A stretch of 64,000 nt of DNA from Natrialba magadii ATCC 43099 (GTDB lineage Archaea > Halobacteriota > Halobacteria > Halobacteriales > Natrialbaceae): positions 1,426,001-1,490,000 of the forward strand of contig NC_013922.1 of the NCBI RefSeq assembly GCF_000025625.1, in the 5' to 3' direction. The position numbers and the translations under genes are program-made. The first letter of the stretch is position 1, and each line of letters opens with the position of its first letter. Shown here in pieces: positions 34,418 to 45,355 of this stretch. Below the pieces are notes generated by a model. It saw nothing but the letters and a program-made list of their open reading frames with translations. It had not been told where the DNA came from and ran no database searches.

Positions 34418-34693
34418 TCAGTTGAACGTGCGGTCGTCGAAGCCGTCCTCGGGGCCGTCGTCGCGGTTGCCGGAGAGTCGCGGCGTGAAGCCGCCGGTGA
34501 GGATCACGGCGACGACGATGAGCGCGGCCGCAAGGACGACGTAGTCGGCGCTTGGCTCGTAGCCGGCGAGGCCGGCACCGGTCGAGATGACGAAGATCGT
34601 GACCGCGAAGACGACGGTCGCGATCAGACCGATAACGAGGATTCCGATAACGCTCGCGAGGAGGCCCTTCATGATGGACTGAATGGATGCCAT
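34418..34693 (-). CDS. Small membrane protein, unknown function
   Basis: A 91-residue protein starting MASIQSIMKGLLASVIGILV, with two membrane helices (about residues 8-35 and 50-68) and an acidic C-terminus (NRDDGPEDGFDDRTFN). ATG 34693 gives the most natural N-terminus. The gene lies between two divergent or unrelated genes and has no recognisable catalytic motif. It is probably a conserved haloarchaeal microprotein. Confidence 0.6.
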   Translation of the reverse strand: MASIQSIMKGLLASVIGILVIGLIATVVFAVTIFVISTGAGLAGYEPSADYVVLAAALIVVAVILTGGFTPRLSGNRDDGPEDGFDDRTFN

Positions 34694-34826
34694 TGTGGTC
34701 CGCTTTGGAGCCACCGCACGTAGTGATTGTGACATCCACCGAATTTCACGCGACACAACGGTCACCGAATCAGCAGCGAGCGACTGCCACGACGAGGTTT
34801 ACAGGACTGCCTCGCCTACCGTCTCT

Positions 34827-36032
34827 ATGGTCACCACACTCTCGGCCGATCGCCTCGCGGAACTACAAGACGAAGGCGAATCGTTCGCGCTCGTCGACAC
34901 CCGTCCCGAAGACAGCTACGAGGCCTGGCACGTCCCCGACGCGATCAACTTCCCGTTCGACCCCGAAGAAGAACTCGACGAGAACGGCCAACTCGAGTCG
35001 TTCAAAGAAACAGTCGGTGACACCGACCAGGTGATCACCATCTGTGCGAAGGGTATCTCCTCAGGGAATTTCGCGACCCAACTCGAGTCCGCCACAGACG
35101 AGTACGAGGTGCAGACGGTCGACGGCGGGATGGAGGGCTGGAGCGGCGTCTACGATCACGTCGACCTGAGTGACGAGATTGCGGCGGACGGCCTCACGGT
35201 CATCCAACTCCAGCGCCGCGCGAAGGGCTGTCTCGGCTACCTCGTCGGCTGCGGTGAGACCGGCGAGGCCGTCGTCGTCGATCCAACCGCCGATATCGAC
35301 GAGTTCGAAATCGCGGCCGGCGACGCCGGTCTCTCTATCGTCGGCGTCATCGATACGCACGTCCACGCGGACCATATTTCGGGCGGTAGAGAGCTCGCAG
35401 ACAGCCTCGACGTACCCTACTACCTCGGCACGCGTGCCAAAGAGCGCGGCGTCGAACTCGAGTTCACCGGTCTCGAGCGCAACGAGGTCCTCGAAGTCGG
35501 TTCCCTCGAAATCAAGGCACTCGCCACGCCCGGCCACACCAGCGAGATGATTACCCTCCTCGTCGACGCCGCTGCACTCCTGACCGCCGACACGCTGCAC
35601 GTCGACTCGACGGGACGGACCGAACTCGAGTTCGGGCAGGATAGCGAGGCGCAGCACGCCTCGGGGGAGTCGAACGGTGAAACCGTGAGGGAGGGCGAGG
35701 AGGGCGCACGGATGCTCTACGAGACGCTCCACCGGACGATCCTGGCGGAACCCGAGCGCCTCGCGGTCCTGCCGGGTCACGTGACCGTCACCGCGGAGGG
35801 CGAGTTCGAGCACGGTTCTCCCGGTGAGCCGATTCTGACGACCGTGCGCGCGGCACGGACTGGAATCAACCTGCTCGACCTGGACGAGGAGGCGTTCGTC
35901 GAGCGGATGGCCGACGCCGGCGAGAAGCCAGCGAACTACGAGGAGATCATCGACAACAACCGCGGGGAACTGGACCTACCGCCCGAGGAGCGAGTCGAAC
36001 TCGAGATGGGGCCGAACAACTGTTCGGCGTGA
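34827..36032 (+). CDS. Rhodanese-MBL fusion, probable persulfide dioxygenase-type hydrolase
   Basis: A 401-residue fusion. Residues 1-115 are a rhodanese domain (LVDTRPEDSYEAWHVPDAIN, active-site loop ITICAKGISSGNFA with Cys). Residues about 125-360 are a metallo-beta-lactamase fold with the metal motif IDTHVHADHISGG (HxHxDH), ATPGHTSEM and LPGHVT. This combination is found in persulfide dioxygenases (ETHE1/PDO group), which oxidise glutathione- or other low-molecular-weight persulfides; haloarchaea have no glutathione, so gamma-glutamylcysteine or protein persulfides would be the likely substrates. In this protein the rhodanese comes first, unlike in most bacterial fusions. Confidence 0.82.
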   Translation: MVTTLSADRLAELQDEGESFALVDTRPEDSYEAWHVPDAINFPFDPEEELDENGQLESFKETVGDTDQVITICAKGISSGNFATQLESATDEYEVQTVDGGMEGWSGVYDHVDLSDEIAADGLTVIQLQRRAKGCLGYLVGCGETGEAVVVDPTADIDEFEIAAGDAGLSIVGVIDTHVHADHISGGRELADSLDVPYYLGTRAKERGVELEFTGLERNEVLEVGSLEIKALATPGHTSEMITLLVDAAALLTADTLHVDSTGRTELEFGQDSEAQHASGESNGETVREGEEGARMLYETLHRTILAEPERLAVLPGHVTVTAEGEFEHGSPGEPILTTVRAARTGINLLDLDEEAFVERMADAGEKPANYEEIIDNNRGELDLPPEERVELEMGPNNCSA

Positions 36033-36576: not shown

Positions 36577-36951
36577 CTATCGGGAGTACGTCTCCAGACG
36601 CACCAGTCGCCCTTGCTCGCGATCGACTGTGAAAAAGTCCGCAAACTCGAACAGCTCGCCGGACTCGTCGCACACTCGTCCGCGAGCCGCGACTGTGAGT
36701 TCGTCGGTACTCGAGTTCGAGTCGCCATCACCATCTCCCGCGTCACGTCCTGCGACGACCTCCTCGAGTTCATGAGTCGTCTCCGGGTTCGGCCGCTCCT
36801 CGCGCATGAACTGGATGAACGCCGTCCGACTCTCGAAGGTTCGGTCGGGGCGGCGCTGGGTGAACTCGGGTGCGAGCACCGACTCGAGTGCGTCGTAGTC
36901 GTGGGCGTCGAGCGCGTCGTAGTAGCGTCGAACGAGGCCGGTGGCGTCCAT
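36577..36951 (-). CDS. SnoaL/NTF2-like protein
   Basis: A 124-residue single cone-shaped NTF2-like domain: MDATGLVRRYYDALDAHDYD is the first helix, LESVLAPEFTQRRPDRTFES the first strand region, and FADFFTVDREQGRLVRLETY the last strands. A DGDGDSNSS insertion interrupts the middle. Members range from polyketide cyclases to isomerases and non-enzymatic binders, so no reaction can be given. A related protein is encoded at 52095-52499. Confidence 0.78.
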   Translation of the reverse strand: MDATGLVRRYYDALDAHDYDALESVLAPEFTQRRPDRTFESRTAFIQFMREERPNPETTHELEEVVAGRDAGDGDGDSNSSTDELTVAARGRVCDESGELFEFADFFTVDREQGRLVRLETYSR

Positions 36952-37100: not shown

Positions 37101-38924
37101 ATGTCTGTCATGGCAACTGCTGACGACAATCAATCGGACACCGAGTTCAGTCCGGCTGTCTCGCTCGAGGCACTCGAGGAGACCGGGCGCGAACTGGTGA
37201 GTATCGACGGCACGCCGCTGGCGATCTTCGCCCACGAAGGCGAGGTCAAGGCCGTGAACAACCGCTGTCCGCACATGGGGTTCCCGCTCGTCGAGGGGAC
37301 TGTCGACGACGGCATTCTCACCTGCCACTGGCATCACGCGCGGTTCGAACTCTCCTGTGGCGACACCTTCGATCCCTGGGCCGATGACGTCCAGACGTAT
37401 CCCGTCGAGATCCGAGACGGCACCGTCTACGTGAACCCGAATCCAGAGCGAGACCTACCACCCGCCGAACACTGGGCGACCCGACTCGAGACCGCACTCG
37501 AGGAGAACCTGCGACTGGTCGCAGCGAAGTCCGCAATCGGGCTGCTAGATGCGGGCGTCGAACCCGAGGAACCGATCGGGACGACGATCGCGTTCGGAAC
37601 CCAGTACCGGGAGTCGGGCTGGGGGTCGGGACTCACGATCCTCGGCTGTATGACGAACCTGTTGGACGATGTCGATCCCGAGGACCGAAAGCGAGCGCTG
37701 TACACGGGTATGCGCCACGTCGCGGACGACTGTGCGGGCGAGCCACCGAGCTTCGACCAGCCCGCCTTCGATACGACGGAGGTCACCTTCAGCCGGCTGA
37801 AGTCCTGGTTCCGCGACTGCGTCGAGGTTCGGGACGCCGACGGCGCGGAACGCTGTCTGCGAACCGCCGTCGCGGCGGACTACTCGGCTGCCGAGATTGC
37901 CGAACTCGTCGTCGCCGGCGCGACTGATCACCCCTACCTCTCGAACGGACACGTCCTCGATTTCGCGAACAAGGCCTTCGAGAGCCTCGAGGAAACCGAC
38001 TGGGAACACGCCGAGACGACACTCGCGGCCCTCGTCGAACCCCTCGTCACCGCCGCCCGCAGCGACGAACGCTCCTCGTGGCGACAGCCGATCGATCTCG
38101 TTGCACTCCTCGAAGACACCTACGGTGGGAACGTTACAGAAACGAGTGGACTCGAGTCCCTCGCCGCTGCGAGCGGGAAGACGGATACCGACGAACCGTG
38201 GACGCCACCCGCGGACCTCCAGGAAACGCTTCTCGGCGACGACCCCGAGGCCATCGTCGACGCACTCGCCGAGGCGATCCGACAGGGGGCGACGACCGAG
38301 GACCTGTCCGCAGAAGTCGCCTCCGCCGCCGCGACGCGCGTCGCCCAGTTCGGGACCGCAAACGAGTTCAGCGACTGGAACACCGTCCACCACACGTTCA
38401 GCTACGCGAACGCAGTCCACCAGTTCGCGCGCCGAACGGACGCCGTCGAGACCTACCGTGGCGTCTTCGATGGCGCGCTCTCGGTCTACCTCGACCGGTT
38501 CCTCAACACGCCACCCGCGCCGATTCCCACCCCCGGCGAGAACGACACCGGCCGCGATCCGGACGCCGTTCGCCAGGGGGTACTCGAGACGTTCGACGCA
38601 GAGGGAGAGGTGAACGAGGCGGGGCGATTAGTCGCCGAATTCTTCGACTGTGGCGGCGACCCCGCTGACTTGCGGCAAACACTCGGCCACGGGTTGTTGC
38701 GCGAGGACGCCGGGTTTCACACGCTCCAGAACGTCGAGGCGGCGTTCCGGCAGGCCGAACTCGCCACCGACGAACGCGAGCAGCGCCAGCGCGTGCCGCT
38801 CATCGCGACGGCCCGCTATCTGGCAGCACACTTCCCGACGCGCCGGGAGGCCGAACAGACGTACACCATCGCTGCGCGGCTCAATCGGGGCGAAGCGATT
38901 CACGAGGCTGCCAAGTCGAACTGA
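37101..38924 (+). CDS. Rieske [2Fe-2S] protein fused to a large unknown helical domain
   Basis: A 607-residue protein. Residues about 17-112 are a soluble Rieske ferredoxin-like domain with both cluster motifs, CPHMG (about residue 56) and CHWHHARF (about residue 75). The other 480 residues are mainly helical and match no domain I can name. Within them two segments look like repeats: one near residues 250-300 with GHVLDFANKAFE, the other near residues 385-450 with HHTFSYANAVHQF, both ending in a His followed by an aromatic-Ala-Asn. This may be a histidine-based metal or substrate site fed electrons by the Rieske cluster. ATG 37101 or 37110 could be used. Confidence 0.75.
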   Translation: MSVMATADDNQSDTEFSPAVSLEALEETGRELVSIDGTPLAIFAHEGEVKAVNNRCPHMGFPLVEGTVDDGILTCHWHHARFELSCGDTFDPWADDVQTYPVEIRDGTVYVNPNPERDLPPAEHWATRLETALEENLRLVAAKSAIGLLDAGVEPEEPIGTTIAFGTQYRESGWGSGLTILGCMTNLLDDVDPEDRKRALYTGMRHVADDCAGEPPSFDQPAFDTTEVTFSRLKSWFRDCVEVRDADGAERCLRTAVAADYSAAEIAELVVAGATDHPYLSNGHVLDFANKAFESLEETDWEHAETTLAALVEPLVTAARSDERSSWRQPIDLVALLEDTYGGNVTETSGLESLAAASGKTDTDEPWTPPADLQETLLGDDPEAIVDALAEAIRQGATTEDLSAEVASAAATRVAQFGTANEFSDWNTVHHTFSYANAVHQFARRTDAVETYRGVFDGALSVYLDRFLNTPPAPIPTPGENDTGRDPDAVRQGVLETFDAEGEVNEAGRLVAEFFDCGGDPADLRQTLGHGLLREDAGFHTLQNVEAAFRQAELATDEREQRQRVPLIATARYLAAHFPTRREAEQTYTIAARLNRGEAIHEAAKSN

Positions 38925-39014: not shown

Positions 39015-40397
39015 TCAGTCGCCCTGAATCGTCCCGCCGCCCTCTGGACTGTACCGCTCGGCGTCGTCGTACCGGACACACTTCGCCGTCTGCTCCGGTG
39101 TCACCTGATACGTCGTGATCTCGCCGCGTTCACAGGGCGAGGCAAACTCGGTTTCGATCCGGTTGCGAGCCTGTTCGCGGTCGCCCTCTGTCGCCGTCGT
39201 GAGGACATCCGAGAGGACGCGCTCGGCCTCCGAATCGGAGAGTGTAGCCGGGATGTCGTAGGACTCACGGAGCGCAGCAGGTGTCGCCTCCTCGTCTTCG
39301 CTCGTGAGCGTGAGGTCGTCACGGAGCAGATCCTGGCGGAAGTTCGCGACCGCACGCCAGTGATCCTGGTCCATCTCGTAGCCCTCGGGCTGGACCAGTT
39401 TCGGACAGCGCGGGTGGAACCGACAGCCACTCGGCACGTCGACGGGGTCCGGCACCTCCCCGACGAGTTCGATCCGCTCGCGCTCCTCGGTCGGGTCGAT
39501 CCGCGGGACCGAGGAGACAAGCGCCTGCGTGTAGGGGTGTTTCGGATCGTTGATGATCTGGTCTGCTGGGCCGACTTCGACCAGTTCGCCCAGGTACATG
39601 ATCCCGATCCGGTCGCACATGTGCTTGAGCAGGGAGAGGTCGTGACTGATGTAGACCGCCGTCAGCCCGAGCTCCGTTTGGAGCTCCTTGAACAGGTCGA
39701 GGATGCTCGCTCGAATCGAAACGTCGAGCATACTCGCCGGCTCGTCGGCCAGCAGGAACGACGGCTCGAGTGCAAGCGCGCGAGCGATGCCGACGCGCTG
39801 GCGTTCACCGCCCGAGAGTTCGCTCGGATACTCGTCGGCGTAGGCCTCGGCGGGTCGCAGTCCGGCCTGTTCGATGGTCTCGTAGACGCGGGCGTCGCGC
39901 TCCTCGCTGGTGCCGACGTCGTGCACGTCGAGGGGCTCTTTGACCCACTCGTAGACTGTGAATCGCGGGTTGAGCGACTTGTACGGATCCTGGTGGATGA
40001 TCTGGGCCTCACGGCGGAACTCGTTGAGTTCAGCACCGCCGACGTCGGTGATCTCCTTCCCGTCGAAGTGAATCTCACCGCCCGTCGGCTCGAGGAGTCT
40101 GATCGCACTCTTGCCGAGCGTCGTCTTTCCACAGCCGGACTCGCCGGCGAGACCGAACGCCTCACCCTCGCGAATGCCGAGTGAGACGCCGTCGACGGCT
40201 TTGACTGCGTCGTTGCTCTCACCGTGGAGGATGCGCGAGACGAGTCCCGTGTTGACCGGGAAGTGCTTCTCGAGTCCCTCGATGCGGAGCTTGTACGCTT
40301 CGTCGCGTTCGTCGACTGCGCTTGCGTCGGTCGATTCTGAGTCGGTCGCAGTGGCGTCGGACTCGGAGTCGAGCTCAACCGTGTCCGCGTCAGTCAT
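39015..40397 (-). CDS. Di/oligopeptide ABC transporter ATP-binding protein (DppF-type)
   Basis: A 460-residue ATPase. After a 35-residue acidic lead, the ABC domain shows Walker [14 protein letters not shown], signature [15 protein letters not shown] and Walker [15 protein letters not shown], with the switch His in [13 protein letters not shown]. The C-terminal oligopeptide/dipeptide extension has [11 protein letters not shown], and the protein continues about 120 residues further than usual with a [15 protein letters not shown] segment. It powers uptake together with the DppD-type subunit. Its ATG overlaps the dppD-type stop by 8 bases (ATGACTGA). It is the last gene of the operon. Confidence 0.88.
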
Positions 40398-41475
40398 CGA
40401 GTTCCACCTCCGCTTCCACGGCCTGTTCGTCGGCTGTCCCGACGGGTTCGGGTTCGCCGATATCCTGCTCGCGCCAGGTCTCTTTCTTGCCGGCTTCCGC
40501 CTGCAGGTGCTCGATTTCGTCGGCACGGTGGCACTCGACCTGATGGCCGTCGCCGTAGGATTCGGGCTGGGGCGTTACTTCCCAGCACTCCTCCTCGGCG
40601 AACGGACAGCGTGGTGCGAAGCGACAGCCTTCGCCGGGGTCGACGAGTTCCGGCGGCGAGCCGGGGATGGAGATGAGCTCCTGGTCGTCGTCGCTGATGT
40701 CGGGGAAGGCGTTTCGTAGGCCGAGCGTGTAGGGGTGGCGCGGATTCGTGATGATCGTCTCGGCGTCCGCGAGTTCGACGATTCGGCCGCCGTAGACCAC
40801 GGCGATGCGGTCACAGGTTTCACTGACGACCGACATGTCGTGGGTAATCATGATCATCGCGCTGTTCAGTTCCTCCTGCATCTCTTTGATCGTCTCCAGG
40901 ATGCGGTCCTGAATCACCACGTCGAGCGCCGTTGTGGGCTCGTCTGCGAGCACGAGTGACGGCGAGAGCGCGAGTGCGAGCGCGATCATCGCACGCTGGG
41001 CCATCCCGCCGGAGAACTGGTGGGGATAGTCGTCGATGCGGTCGGGATCGATCCCGAGGTCGTCGAACAGTTCGCGGCCGCGCTCGCGGGCCTCGGCCTT
41101 CGAGGTGTTGTCCTCGTGGTGTCTGATCACTTCGACGATCTGCTCGCCAACGGTGTAGACGGGGTCGAACCCGTTCATCGCGTTCTGCGGAATCATCGAG
41201 ATTTCCGACCAGCGGATCTGGCGTCTGAGCTCCTTGTTGGAGAGCTCGGTAATCTCGGTTCCGTCGAACTCGATGGAGCCGTCGACGATTTCGGCGTTGT
41301 CGGGTAGCAGCCGGATAATTGACTTTGCAAGTGTCGTCTTTCCGCTGCCACTCTCGCCGACCAGGCCGACGGTTTCGCCGCGTTCGATCGACAGCGAGGC
41401 GTCGTCCGTCGCACGAACCCAGCCGTCGTCGGCACCGTAGTACGTCTTCAGTCCGTCAATATCGAGTAGCGTCAT
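40390..41475 (-). CDS. Di/oligopeptide ABC transporter ATP-binding protein (DppD-type)
   Basis: A 361-residue ATPase: Walker [15 protein letters not shown]-loop [10 protein letters not shown], signature [15 protein letters not shown], Walker [15 protein letters not shown] and switch region [13 protein letters not shown]. The C-terminal extension [15 protein letters not shown] is typical of dipeptide/oligopeptide transporters and has cysteines that bind an Fe-S cluster in some homologues. It pairs with the DppF-type subunit as a heterodimer beneath the two permeases. Start and stop overlap both neighbours (TAATG with the permease), so translation is coupled. Confidence 0.9.
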
Positions 41476-42419
41476 TATTGGTGGTTGAGTTCAGGGTTGA
41501 CCTCTTTCTCGAGCGTGCGGCCGATGAAGAACACCGACATCACGAACAGCATGATGCAGATGCCCGGTGGGAAGACCCACCACCACGCCTCGCGGATCGC
41601 GTTCGCGGTGTAGACGTTGTAGATCATCTCGCCCCACGAGAGCATGTTCGGATCACCGAAGCCGAGGAACGAGAGGCTGGCCTCGGCGATCACTGCCCAC
41701 GCAACTGCGAACGCTGCGTACAGGAACGTCAGCGGCAACACGTTCGGCAGGATGTGTCGGTACATGATCCGCACGTGGCCGGCACCGATGGCCTGTGCAC
41801 TCTCGACGTACGGTCGTTGCTTGTGGCTCAACACCTGCGCTCGGATCACCCGTGCCGTCGAACGCCACAGAATCAACACGATCGCCGCGATGATGTTGAC
41901 GATACTGCTGCCCAGGACCGCCACGAGGACGATCGCGAACGGCAGAAACGGCACACCGTAGACGATGTCGGTAATCCGCATCAGCACGTCGTCGACCCAG
42001 CCGCCGAAGTAGGCGCTGATAAGGCCGACGTTCGTACCGATGAAGACAGCCATGAACGCCGCGAGACTGCCGACGATCAACGTCACGCGCGTCCCTGCGA
42101 TAAGCTGGGACAGCACGTCACGACCCATGTCGGTCGTTCCGAGCGGGTGCGCCGCCGAGGGGGACTCGAGTCGGTCGCCGACTGCTCGTTCACCCGGATC
42201 GTACGGAGCGAGTCCGGGCGTCGAAATCGTAAAGTCGAAGAGTTCGATCGTGTACGGCCGAGCGAAGATCCCGATGAAGATGAACAGTGCGAGGATCGCC
42301 AGCCCAATCTGACCGAGTCGGTCGCCTTCGAATACCTCGAATCGCTGGCGGAGCGATGCGAATCGCTCGCCGGCGCTGGTCGTCGTGCTGTCGGTTGGTG
42401 ACGGTTGTTCGGTGCTCAT
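41475..42419 (-). CDS. Di/oligopeptide ABC transporter permease (DppC-type)
   Basis: A 314-residue permease with six predicted membrane helices: the first at LGLAILALFIFIGIFARP, the others within the BPD inner-membrane domain (SLAAFMAVFIGTNVGLISAY, then FLPFAIVLVAVLGSSI). The ABC-coupling EAA loop is visible as AIGAGHVRIMYRHILPNVLP. A conserved GTDMGRDVLSQLIAG region precedes helix 2, as in DppC/OppC. The start overlaps the DppB-type stop by four bases (ATGA). Confidence 0.9.
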   Translation of the reverse strand: MSTEQPSPTDSTTTSAGERFASLRQRFEVFEGDRLGQIGLAILALFIFIGIFARPYTIELFDFTISTPGLAPYDPGERAVGDRLESPSAAHPLGTTDMGRDVLSQLIAGTRVTLIVGSLAAFMAVFIGTNVGLISAYFGGWVDDVLMRITDIVYGVPFLPFAIVLVAVLGSSIVNIIAAIVLILWRSTARVIRAQVLSHKQRPYVESAQAIGAGHVRIMYRHILPNVLPLTFLYAAFAVAWAVIAEASLSFLGFGDPNMLSWGEMIYNVYTANAIREAWWWVFPPGICIMLFVMSVFFIGRTLEKEVNPELNHQ

Positions 42420-43396
42420 TCGTACTCCACCCTCGGATCGAGGTAGACGTAGGCGAGGTCAGCGACGAAGTTCATGATGATCACGACCGATCCCATGAGG
42501 AAGAACGCCGCCATCGCCAGCGGATAGTCGTTGTTGTTTACCGCACTCACCATCTCACGACCCATTCCGGGCCAGTTGAAGACGGTCTCGATGACGACCG
42601 AGCCACCCATCGCAGTGCCGGTCGCGATCGCTGCGACCGTCACGATCGGCAGGATCGAGTTGCGAGCGGCGTGCTTGTACAGCACCGTCCGCTCTGGCAG
42701 CCCCTCTGCCTTCTTGATCTCGATGAAGTCGGCGTTCAGGACGTCGAGCATCGTCGAGCGCATAAGCAGCGTCGGCGTCGCTAGATAGGCAATCGCACCG
42801 GTCAGCGCCGGCAGGAACAGGTGGCGCAGGAAGTCAAGCGAGCCGTACCGGTCGATGAAGCCGCCGCCGAGCTCACCACCCGTCGTGCGCATCCCACTCG
42901 AGGGGAACCAGCCGAGCCAGAAGACGAACACGGACAGCAGGACGATGCCGACCCAGAACTCCGGTGAAGAGCGGGCGACGAGCGTCACGACGATGCCGCC
43001 GCGTTCGAATCGGGAGTCGCGCCACCAGCCCATGAGGGCACCAAAGGTGATGCCGATAACGTAGGCGAAGATGAGCGCCGTCGCCATCAGGACGATCGTG
43101 TTCATGAACCGGACGGCGATGATACTGGTCACCGGATCGTTGTAGATGAACGATTGACCGAAGTCGCCCGTCAGCAGCTGTCGAATGTATTCGATATACT
43201 GTACGTGAAGCGGTTCGTTTAATCCGAGCTCTGCGATCCGCTGTTCGCGCTGTTCGGGCGTCATGCCGTCCATGATGAACATCGACGTTGGATCGCCCGG
43301 CATCATCCGAAAGAGAACGAACAGGAGCGTAAAGAACGCCCAGAACGTGACGACGAGCTGGAGACATCGTCTCACGACGTATGCTCTCAGTCCCAT
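42416..43396 (-). CDS. Di/oligopeptide ABC transporter permease (DppB-type)
   Basis: A 326-residue permease with six predicted helices. The N-terminal MGLRAYVVRRCLQLVVTFWA and the following LFRMMPGDP are the DppB/OppB hallmark; the coupling loop is EIKKAEGLPERTVLYKHAAR. It forms a heterodimeric channel with the DppC-type subunit. The gap to the upstream binding-protein gene is 87 bases, where an AU-rich stretch could allow differential expression of the binding protein. Confidence 0.9.
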   Translation of the reverse strand: MGLRAYVVRRCLQLVVTFWAFFTLLFVLFRMMPGDPTSMFIMDGMTPEQREQRIAELGLNEPLHVQYIEYIRQLLTGDFGQSFIYNDPVTSIIAVRFMNTIVLMATALIFAYVIGITFGALMGWWRDSRFERGGIVVTLVARSSPEFWVGIVLLSVFVFWLGWFPSSGMRTTGGELGGGFIDRYGSLDFLRHLFLPALTGAIAYLATPTLLMRSTMLDVLNADFIEIKKAEGLPERTVLYKHAARNSILPIVTVAAIATGTAMGGSVVIETVFNWPGMGREMVSAVNNNDYPLAMAAFFLMGSVVIIMNFVADLAYVYLDPRVEYE

Positions 43397-43483
43397 CGGT
43401 CACCACACCCAGTGTCGCTAATGAGTATCATGTATCGTATCGTATAGTCGTTAAATATAGTAGTGGAGGGTCGCGTCGGTCGA

Positions 43484-45148
43484 TTACTGGTCTTCGCCGT
43501 AGTGGAGACGTCCGTCGTCGTCCCAGCCGTAGCCACCGTCTGCGAGCTCCTGACGTGCAGCCTCTAAGTCCTCGTTGAACTGCTCGACGTCGGGGTTGTG
43601 CCAGAACTCGTTGTGCTCGGAGATGGTCGAGTGCGTCACCGTTCCCATCCCGTCACGGATGAACTCGACGTACTCCTCCTTCGGAACACCGTAGGAGAGT
43701 GCCCGGCGGACGTGACGGTCGTCGAACGGTTCGCGACGCATGTTGTACTCGATCATCGCGTATCCGATCGCCTCGAACTCGGCGAGGTCGAGATCGTCGT
43801 CCTCTCTGACGCGGTCGACAGCCGTCGGCTGTGGCACCGCACCGACCATATCGAGCTGGCCGGCCTCGAGGTCGTTGACGAGCTGTGCGGTGTCGGAACC
43901 GGGGACACGGATGAGGTTGTCCGCGTTCGGGGCCTCGAAGTGGTCGTCGAACGCCGACAGCTGCAGTTCGGCCTGGCGCTCCCAGTCGACGAACTCGAAC
44001 GGGCCGCTGCCGATCCAATCCTCGTCTTCGTAGTCGACGAGTTCCTCCGGATCGACGTCGCCCCAGACGTGTTCGGGGAAGATGTACACCTGTCCGAGGA
44101 CGTTTGCCACGAACGGCGAGTACTGCTCTTCGAGGTGGAACGTGATCTCGTTCCCCGAGGTGTCGATCTCGTCGATGTCCTCGACGAGCGAGCTGTACGT
44201 CGGCGAGTCGGCGTAGAGTTCGTACGTGAACTCCACGTCGTCGATCGTCACTGACTCGCCGTCGTGGAAGGTGTGGCCGTCCCGAATCTCGACGGTGTAG
44301 GTCATCCCGTCGTCTTCGATGACCGGGTCGTCCGCCGCCAGCCACGGTGTCGGCATTCCGTCCTCACCGATCCGGTAGAGCTGATCGTAGATGAGGCGGA
44401 CGAACTGCCGGTCGGGCGTCGCCAGGTCCTGCATTGGGTTCAGCGAGATAATCTCGGATGGGTAACCAAAGCGGACCGTGTCGTCGTCCGTCGGCGTCAC
44501 CGACGTCAGATTCCAGAACGAGTTCAGCCCTTCACCGAGCGTCGGGTTGATGTCGGTAACGCGGGCGCTCGCGTATGGCTCGTAGCCGCCTTCGTTTGCG
44601 ATGTACGTTCGCGGCTGCGCTTCCGCGATCATCTCCTGTGCCTCGTAGACGGTCTGCTGGCGCTCGTCTTCGTCGACCTGCGCTACCTGCAGCTCCGCCA
44701 GTTCGTCGTACTCGTCGCTCTCCCAGCCCGGCGTGTTTCGACCGCCCTCTCCCGTCGTCGAGGAGTGGTGCATGTCGAAAATGAACGTGTGCGGGTCGAT
44801 CCGCTCCGGCGTGCCACCCCAGCCGAGTAGCGACGCATCGAAGTTCTGTTCGACGACCACCTGATCGACGTGAGCGTTGAAATCGAGTTCTTCGCGGTCG
44901 ACCTCGAAGCCGAGTTCTTCCCAGTTGTCGGCAACGATATCCGAGAGCTCGTTACGGAACGGGTTCGCACCTGCCGTCGGTGCAACGAGATGAATCTCGG
45001 GCACTTCGTCACCGAGATTTTCCGCACCTTCGACATCTGAGCCACCGTTCTGACTGACACATCCTGCGAGACTAGTCGTTAGCCCCGCTGCGCTTGCAAT
45101 CCCAACACCCTTCAGCACGGTACGCCGCGATTTGCTATCGTCTCCCAT
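43484..45148 (-). CDS. Di/oligopeptide ABC transporter substrate-binding lipoprotein
   Basis: A 554-residue family 5 extracellular solute-binding protein. The N-terminus SRRTVLKGVGIASAAGLTTS has twin arginines and ends in a lipobox (LAGC), so it is a Tat-exported lipoprotein. The mature part shows the DppA/OppA pattern with FGYPSEIISLNPMQDLATPD, TYTVEIRDGHTFHDGESVTI and FTYELYADSPTYSSL. Peptides are the likely substrate, but sugars or nickel are also carried by this family. It is the first gene of the five-gene operon. ATG 45148 is chosen from the Tat signal; a palindrome and TATA box lie directly upstream. Confidence 0.9.
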   Translation of the reverse strand: MGDDSKSRRTVLKGVGIASAAGLTTSLAGCVSQNGGSDVEGAENLGDEVPEIHLVAPTAGANPFRNELSDIVADNWEELGFEVDREELDFNAHVDQVVVEQNFDASLLGWGGTPERIDPHTFIFDMHHSSTTGEGGRNTPGWESDEYDELAELQVAQVDEDERQQTVYEAQEMIAEAQPRTYIANEGGYEPYASARVTDINPTLGEGLNSFWNLTSVTPTDDDTVRFGYPSEIISLNPMQDLATPDRQFVRLIYDQLYRIGEDGMPTPWLAADDPVIEDDGMTYTVEIRDGHTFHDGESVTIDDVEFTYELYADSPTYSSLVEDIDEIDTSGNEITFHLEEQYSPFVANVLGQVYIFPEHVWGDVDPEELVDYEDEDWIGSGPFEFVDWERQAELQLSAFDDHFEAPNADNLIRVPGSDTAQLVNDLEAGQLDMVGAVPQPTAVDRVREDDDLDLAEFEAIGYAMIEYNMRREPFDDRHVRRALSYGVPKEEYVEFIRDGMGTVTHSTISEHNEFWHNPDVEQFNEDLEAARQELADGGYGWDDDGRLHYGEDQ

Positions 45149-45158
45149 TCTACAGCCG

Positions 45159-45176
45159 TATCTCTGATCAGAGATA
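45159..45176. promoter_or_regulatory. 18-bp perfect palindrome at the transporter promoter (operator candidate)
   Basis: TATCTCTGATCAGAGATA is a perfect inverted repeat located 11-28 bases upstream of the ATG of the binding-protein gene. It abuts the minus-strand TATA box (CCTTTATATA, about 45175-45184). A dimeric regulator bound here would block or reshape the preinitiation complex. The regulator is not encoded next door. Confidence 0.6.
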
Positions 45177-45355
45177 TATAAAGGTGTGTGATTCCAAAAC
45201 AACAGAACAAGTAGCATACCGATTGTAAACCTTTCACTCATTGATGGATAGTTACACATTCATGGAAGTGTGAATGTGGTAATTAGTAATTCTTACAAAT
45301 TGACGATCCGGCCACACGAGGAACCTTCTTGTATAGGGGGCGGCAGATGTGACCT

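Follow-up and report, generated by a model that had tools for sequence, protein, structure and literature searches.

The window, a stretch of 64,000 nucleotides from the 4.44 Mb genome of Natrialba magadii ATCC 43099, carries on its forward strand a real open reading frame for a protein of 607 amino acids (Table 1). The conserved start of the gene is probably the ATG at 37110 (M4) and not position 37101, as hardly any relative departs from M4 and the consensus of the family opens with MAT. Rieske was the sole domain recognised by Pfam and NCBIfam. It lies at the N-terminus, where PF00355 matched residues 26-101 above its curated cut-off. The motifs CPHMG (C56, H58) and CHWHHARF (C75, H78), from which the earlier note had read a Rieske domain without database searches, were found as described, and each of the four ligands was present in all 92 sequences aligned. 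The nearest solved sequences to this part are ferredoxins of aromatic oxygenases (2qpz, E 2.7e-8). A second place in the host genome is weakly similar (34%) to the Rieske part only (L002 1417-1881, reverse strand).

Table 1. Features of the Rieske-helical fusion gene, with positions in the window.
Feature	Position	Strand	Evidence
Whole gene, Rieske-helical fusion	37101..38924	+	607 aa; likely start ATG 37110 (M4)
Rieske [2Fe-2S] domain, residues 16-112	37146..37436	+	PF00355 E 8.4e-15; VIA 2qpz Z 17.9; ligands 92/92
All-helical C-terminal domain, residues 118-602, questin-oxidase-like fold in models	37452..38906	+	AlphaFold2 pLDDT 93.2; BTG13 Z 16.4, 324 residues; without Pfam family
K143, invariant lysine ahead of repeat 1	37527..37529	+	92/92
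GWGSGLTI, residues 173-180, counterpart of the BTG13 repeat-1 NHxxH, without His	37617..37640	+	VIA ranges, BTG13 sequence, alignment
Helical repeat 2, residues 227-321, carries GHVLDFANKAFE	37779..38063	+	Superposes on MgsA/RarA C-terminal domain 2r9g; profile match with repeat 3
H284xxD287, predicted iron ligands, repeat 2	37950..37961	+	Both 92/92
Helical repeat 3, residues 368-468, carries HHTFSYANAVHQF	38202..38504	+	Structural superposition; profile match with repeat 2
H431xxS/T434, predicted iron ligand and HxxT motif common with BTG13	38391..38402	+	H431 92/92; T/S434 92/92
Helical repeat 4, residues 486-596, carries FHTLQNVEAAF	38556..38888	+	Superposes on MgsA family 3ctd, 2qw6
H540xxQ543, predicted iron ligand, repeat 4	38718..38729	+	Both 92/92; BTG13 H374xxK377

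The C-terminal part of about 485-490 residues matched no Pfam family. In it, the residues K143, W174, G177, R244, H284, D287, E323, W327, R413, N421, D425, W426, H431, R466, E535, H540, Q543, Y573, T580 and R582 were invariant in 92 of 92 sequences; position 434 was always T or S, and H577 was kept in 89. H206, H303, H440 and H530 varied. The invariant polar residues D287, E323, N421, D425, E535, Q543, R413 and R466 look like those of an active site. The two His residues around which the earlier note had suspected a metal or substrate site, H284 and H431, were thus both retained by every homologue.

When the C-terminal part was used as query, relatives were found in 30 out of 393 Halobacteriota genomes, all from the order of the window itself. 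Altogether, 62 haloarchaeal loci with relatives were collected, from more than 60 haloarchaea, and the closest ones belong to Natrialba species (90-94% identity). Bacterial relatives came from plasmids of cyanobacteria, proteobacteria and Bacillota: full-length proteins with 41-46% identity occur in Microvirga, Sinorhizobium, Paraburkholderia, Nostoc, Aulosira, Gloeothece, Metabacillus and Priestia. Where annotated, they are named only as Rieske proteins (‘Rieske (2Fe-2S) protein’). The Rieske domain was present at every intact locus, the exceptions being split copies or copies at contig edges. In a midpoint-rooted tree, the seven bacterial sequences examined formed one clade with a support of 0.999; their identity to the window protein was 44-57% in the Rieske part and 41-47% in the helical part, which fits one old fusion whose two parts descended jointly. 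In Halosimplex pelagicum (L078 5158-7422), an in-frame stop at about residue 455 divides the homologue into two open reading frames, which may reflect either a pseudogene or an error in sequencing. Haladaptatus pallidirubidus has two copies with equal match statistics at separate places on one chromosome (L091, L093), a recent duplication.

The His-containing stretches GHVLDFANKAFE (H284) and HHTFSYANAVHQF (H431), pointed out in the earlier note as signs of an internal duplication, were verified in the sequence. A profile-profile alignment of residues 227-345 with residues 366-482 scored 36.8 (E 6.9e-6) and paired H284 with H431. None of 100 column shuffles reached this score (maximum 25.0) and the reversed control scored 11.7. 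The two motifs therefore align beyond chance, but a single duplication is not the whole story: the domain consists of about four helical repeats, three of which contain an invariant His (H284, H431 and H540). An MgsA-type protein of E. faecium (2r9g, 2qw6) superposed on residues 114-208 and, separately, on 375-467 of the domain, and an RFC subunit (7tib, 7thj) on 114-207 and 255-355. By arithmetic on the range ends, which is not a residue-level alignment, H284 (domain residue 171) corresponds roughly to domain residues 311-319 in the third repeat (H431 being residue 318) and to 428-431 in the fourth (H540 being residue 427). From these ranges it follows that repeats 2, 3 and 4 each hold one invariant His at roughly the same place. 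By sequence, the repeat pairs 2-4 and 1-3 were indistinguishable from shuffles and the pair 3-4 was marginal, with one shuffle in 100 reaching its score; the equivalence of these three pairs is a matter of the superposition ranges in the models.

AlphaFold2 was applied to the full-length protein with an alignment of 82 sequences (pLDDT 90.9, pTM 0.90) and to the helical domain alone (residues 114-607, 69 sequences), for which it gave an all-helical model with zero beta strand (pLDDT 93.2, pTM 0.92). With the full-length model, Rieske proteins filled the ranking of structural matches, and BTG13 already appeared with a Z of 16.6 over 321 residues. With the domain model, the top six structures were all BTG13, 8yxs or PaD (324-330 residues, 4.1-4.5 Å, 9-10% identity), namely, the BTG13 entries 7y3y, 7y3w and 7y3x with Z 16.4-15.6, followed by AflY from Aspergillus brunneoviolaceus (8yxs) with Z 14.5 and the hydroquinone dioxygenase PaD with Z 14.2-14.1. 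Behind them came matches of single repeats to MgsA/RarA proteins (Z ≤12.8). Concerning these values, Z scores of 14-16 lie moderately above the chance level for helical proteins and near the range about which the tool warns. Foldseek alone ranked 8yxs first with a probability of 0.99, but weakly, with E 0.018 and a TM score of 0.35-0.38. A kinship with the questin-oxidase fold is proposed because separate structures of one family stand at the top, because they cover about 330 residues as against about 100 for single repeats, and because the His positions fit. A questin-oxidase-like fold as in BTG13, AflY and PaD is thus well supported by the models, and the helical part does have a structural relative that is known.

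No link between the domain and the questin oxidase-like family PF14027 was found by sequence, neither with hmmscan nor with hmmsearch of PDB sequences up to E 10 nor with hhalign. The PF14027 profile gave zero matches in 82 plus 20 members of the family up to E 5-10, while true bacterial members scored 71-141 bits. The argument for kinship with PF14027 is a structural one and remains at the level of the models. Above the cut-off, PF14027 was found neither in the host's own genome nor in the 393 Halobacteriota genomes nor on most plasmids.

A START-type catalytic domain was absent by Pfam, NCBIfam, PDB profile and fold, in agreement with the earlier note, which had stated that the sequence lacks it. 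The order of the parts, Rieske at the N-terminus and then a large domain in which His and Asp are conserved, would also suit a classical Rieske oxygenase whose START-type catalytic domain has diverged strongly. However, this reading is largely refuted and has next to no probability, given a domain model free of beta strands, the lack of any Pfam oxygenase domain and the fact that chains of Rieske oxygenases matched the Rieske part alone. The two outcomes that the earlier note had named as refuting did not occur: the His residues are invariant, and the best structural match is to a helical fold that is catalytic, even if single repeats fit the non-catalytic MgsA/RarA helical domain as well. The superposition of single repeats on MgsA/RarA (Z 12-13) and on clamp-loader helical domains (Z 8) would suit a protein that binds a metal or a small molecule without being an oxygenase, for instance a reductase, isomerase or redox sensor with a linked Rieske domain on a repeat scaffold. 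This is considered unlikely, as the match over the whole domain is to enzymes and the invariant His, Asp, Asn, Glu and Arg are as dense as in an active site.

For comparison of the metal motifs, a bacterial PF14027 protein from a Streptomyces clavuligerus plasmid, confirmed by Pfam, served as seed for relatives and alignment. The motif positions of BTG13 were obtained by counting residues in PDB profile-search alignments seeded from such bacterial relatives and read H55xxH58, H158xxI161, H296xxT299 and H374xxK377. According to the entry titles, 7y3x and 7y3y carry mutations at H58 and T299, and the printed sequences differ there. The iron of BTG13 is bound by four His and the carboxylated K377. 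In repeat 1, true PF14027 members have an invariant NH (H55/H58 in BTG13, N47-H48 in bacterial members), whereas the family studied here reads GWGSGLTI, with G177 in 92 of 92 sequences and without NHxxH. A hand alignment had offered K143 as a stand-in for the second His of NHxxH; this was rejected, since the VIA ranges (domain residue 40 corresponding to BTG13 residue 26) put NHxxH about 35-40 residues further on, at approx. 177-182. In repeat 2, an invariant D287 is additionally present at i+3, where BTG13 has I161. The HxxT motif of repeat 3 is common to both. In repeat 4, the position of the carboxylated lysine is taken by Q543 in all 92 sequences; the bacterial PF14027 members from Rhizobium likewise lack the Lys of HxxK. 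Neither the repeat-1 His nor K377 of BTG13 is conserved here, so the metal site is a predicted one. The conserved residues are most simply read as a 3-His/1-Asp site, where the D287 carboxylate would stand in place of the carboxylated lysine.

At the haloarchaeal and bacterial loci compared, no constant gene partner was found that would hint at the substrate or the reductase. Next upstream, a rhodanese-metallo-beta-lactamase fusion is encoded (window 34683-36032, forward strand), which is persulfide-dioxygenase-like and resembles Blh-type proteins. It holds this place at 23 of the Natrialbaceae-type loci but at only one other haloarchaeal locus. A divergent SnoaL-like gene (36577-36951, reverse strand) upstream of the Rieske gene was kept in 20 Natrialbaceae-type loci only. 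Ordinary genes of an Opp/Dpp-type peptide ABC transporter (39015-45259, reverse strand) are convergent with the Rieske gene. Going by names read from the sequence, the neighbourhood in haloarchaea outside the Natrialbaceae contains either a DnaJ/DnaK region or a regulator of the Lrp-like kind, and in some bacteria an alpha/beta hydrolase. HEAT-repeat and DUF971 genes lie directly upstream of the Rieske-helical gene on a Paraburkholderia sprentiae plasmid (L104). On Rhizobium plasmids (L122-L124, L126), amidohydrolase genes come directly after the genes for the questin-oxidase-family proteins without the HxxK lysine, and genes for an FAD-dependent oxidoreductase or a CocE/NonD hydrolase come before them, probably as catabolic operons. 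The Rieske-helical gene apparently acts on its own and uses a shared reductase. The absence of a constant partner also speaks against the idea that the helical part is a non-catalytic MgsA/RarA-like scaffold whose only role is to dock the Rieske domain onto another enzyme. Nine of 82 members matched MgsA_C weakly (E 3.6e-4 at best) and MgsA-type domains do superpose on single repeats, but H284, D287, H431, H540 and Q543, polar residues of a buried type, are kept in 92 of 92 sequences, which is unlike scaffolds. Such a docking function is therefore highly improbable.

The protein is best seen as a relative, or an analogue, of the questin-oxidase fold with a fused Rieske domain and apparently rewired ligands, and it is probably an oxygenase. 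More specifically, and with a probability of roughly one half, it is proposed to be a self-contained Rieske-coupled mononuclear-iron oxygenase with a questin-oxidase-like fold and a predicted 3-His/1-Asp site. A separate reductase would deliver single electrons to the [2Fe-2S] cluster of the N-terminal Rieske domain, and the cluster would pass an electron on to a mononuclear non-heme iron in the all-helical domain of four repeats. The putative iron ligands are H284, H431 and H540, which sit towards the beginning of equivalent helices, one each in repeats 2, 3 and 4, together with D287 one helical turn past H284 as carboxylate ligand. There, the iron would activate O2 on a substrate that is probably aromatic or quinone-like. 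The fused Rieske domain would supply the electrons internally, whereas the fungal relatives rely on a separately reduced hydroquinone.

The enzyme might instead be a true ring-cleaving dioxygenase that is fed with hydroquinone, with the Rieske domain only reducing a quinone substrate or re-reducing oxidised iron and not serving each turnover. This is doubtful: its nearest structures are the hydroquinone dioxygenase PaD and BTG13, but its ligand set differs from that of BTG13, as the repeat-1 His and K377 are lost and D287 is gained, and Rieske clusters usually supply a mononuclear or di-iron site directly. In its favour, the hydroquinone substrate of GedK, a fungal ring-cleaving dioxygenase, is made beforehand by an NADPH reductase (PMC9890505), and the job of this separate reductase could pass to a fused redox domain. 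This review describes GedK as cofactor-free, while the title of the later BTG13 paper speaks of a nonheme-iron-dependent enzyme. Given the fact that the fusion is obligate, a reductant-driven oxygenase is preferred over a Rieske domain that merely keeps the substrate or the iron reduced.

It is possible, though somewhat less likely than not, that the family represents a second and independently built class of Rieske-dependent oxygenases, with O2 activation driven by Rieske at a mononuclear 3-His/1-Asp iron in an all-helical questin-oxidase-type fold, widespread in archaea and bacteria and with a catalytic domain unrelated to the START-fold enzymes. The suggestion of a new kind of Rieske-coupled enzyme, made in the earlier note, remains sensible; the helical domain, however, does have a known structural relative. 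No paper on a fusion of Rieske and questin oxidase was found in the literature, which is not proof of absence. To our knowledge, Rieske oxygenases all share one catalytic fold, so that a single scaffold has served for working out the rules of electron coupling from Rieske to iron. If Rieske is joined to an iron-enzyme fold of unrelated origin, nature itself offers a test of the real requirements of this coupling. The BTG13-type class is small and known for ring cleavage in fungal natural-product pathways; with the present family, it would also take in archaea and several phyla of bacteria, where the predicted set of iron ligands is different. The family is large and includes easily expressed sources, e.g. 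Priestia megaterium and Nostoc.

Compared with PF14027 proteins (BTG13, AflY/8yxs, PaD and GedK), the all-helical repeat fold is common in the model, as is an invariant His near the start of equivalent helices. The window protein differs in having no detectable sequence similarity to them, in its fused N-terminal Rieske domain and in being about 100 residues longer. Single repeats superposed on the C-terminal helical domains of MgsA/RarA and clamp loaders at Z 12-13 over about 90-105 residues, but with only one repeat per match, and Pfam detected no AAA+ ATPase domain here. The Rieske part is similar to Rieske ferredoxins (2qpz, 2e4p, T4moC) with 24-30% identity and Z up to 17.9. These are separate small carriers, whereas in the window protein carrier and putative acceptor share one chain. 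Classical Rieske oxygenases such as naphthalene dioxygenase, KshA and dicamba monooxygenase likewise have an N-terminal Rieske domain on one chain with a mononuclear-iron domain, which in the present protein is putative. Their catalytic domain is of the helix-grip type, and their C3-symmetric oligomers enable the electron transfer between cluster and iron (PMC12445004). In the protein from N. magadii, the catalytic domain would be all-helical instead of helix-grip/START, and a PF00848-type domain is lacking.
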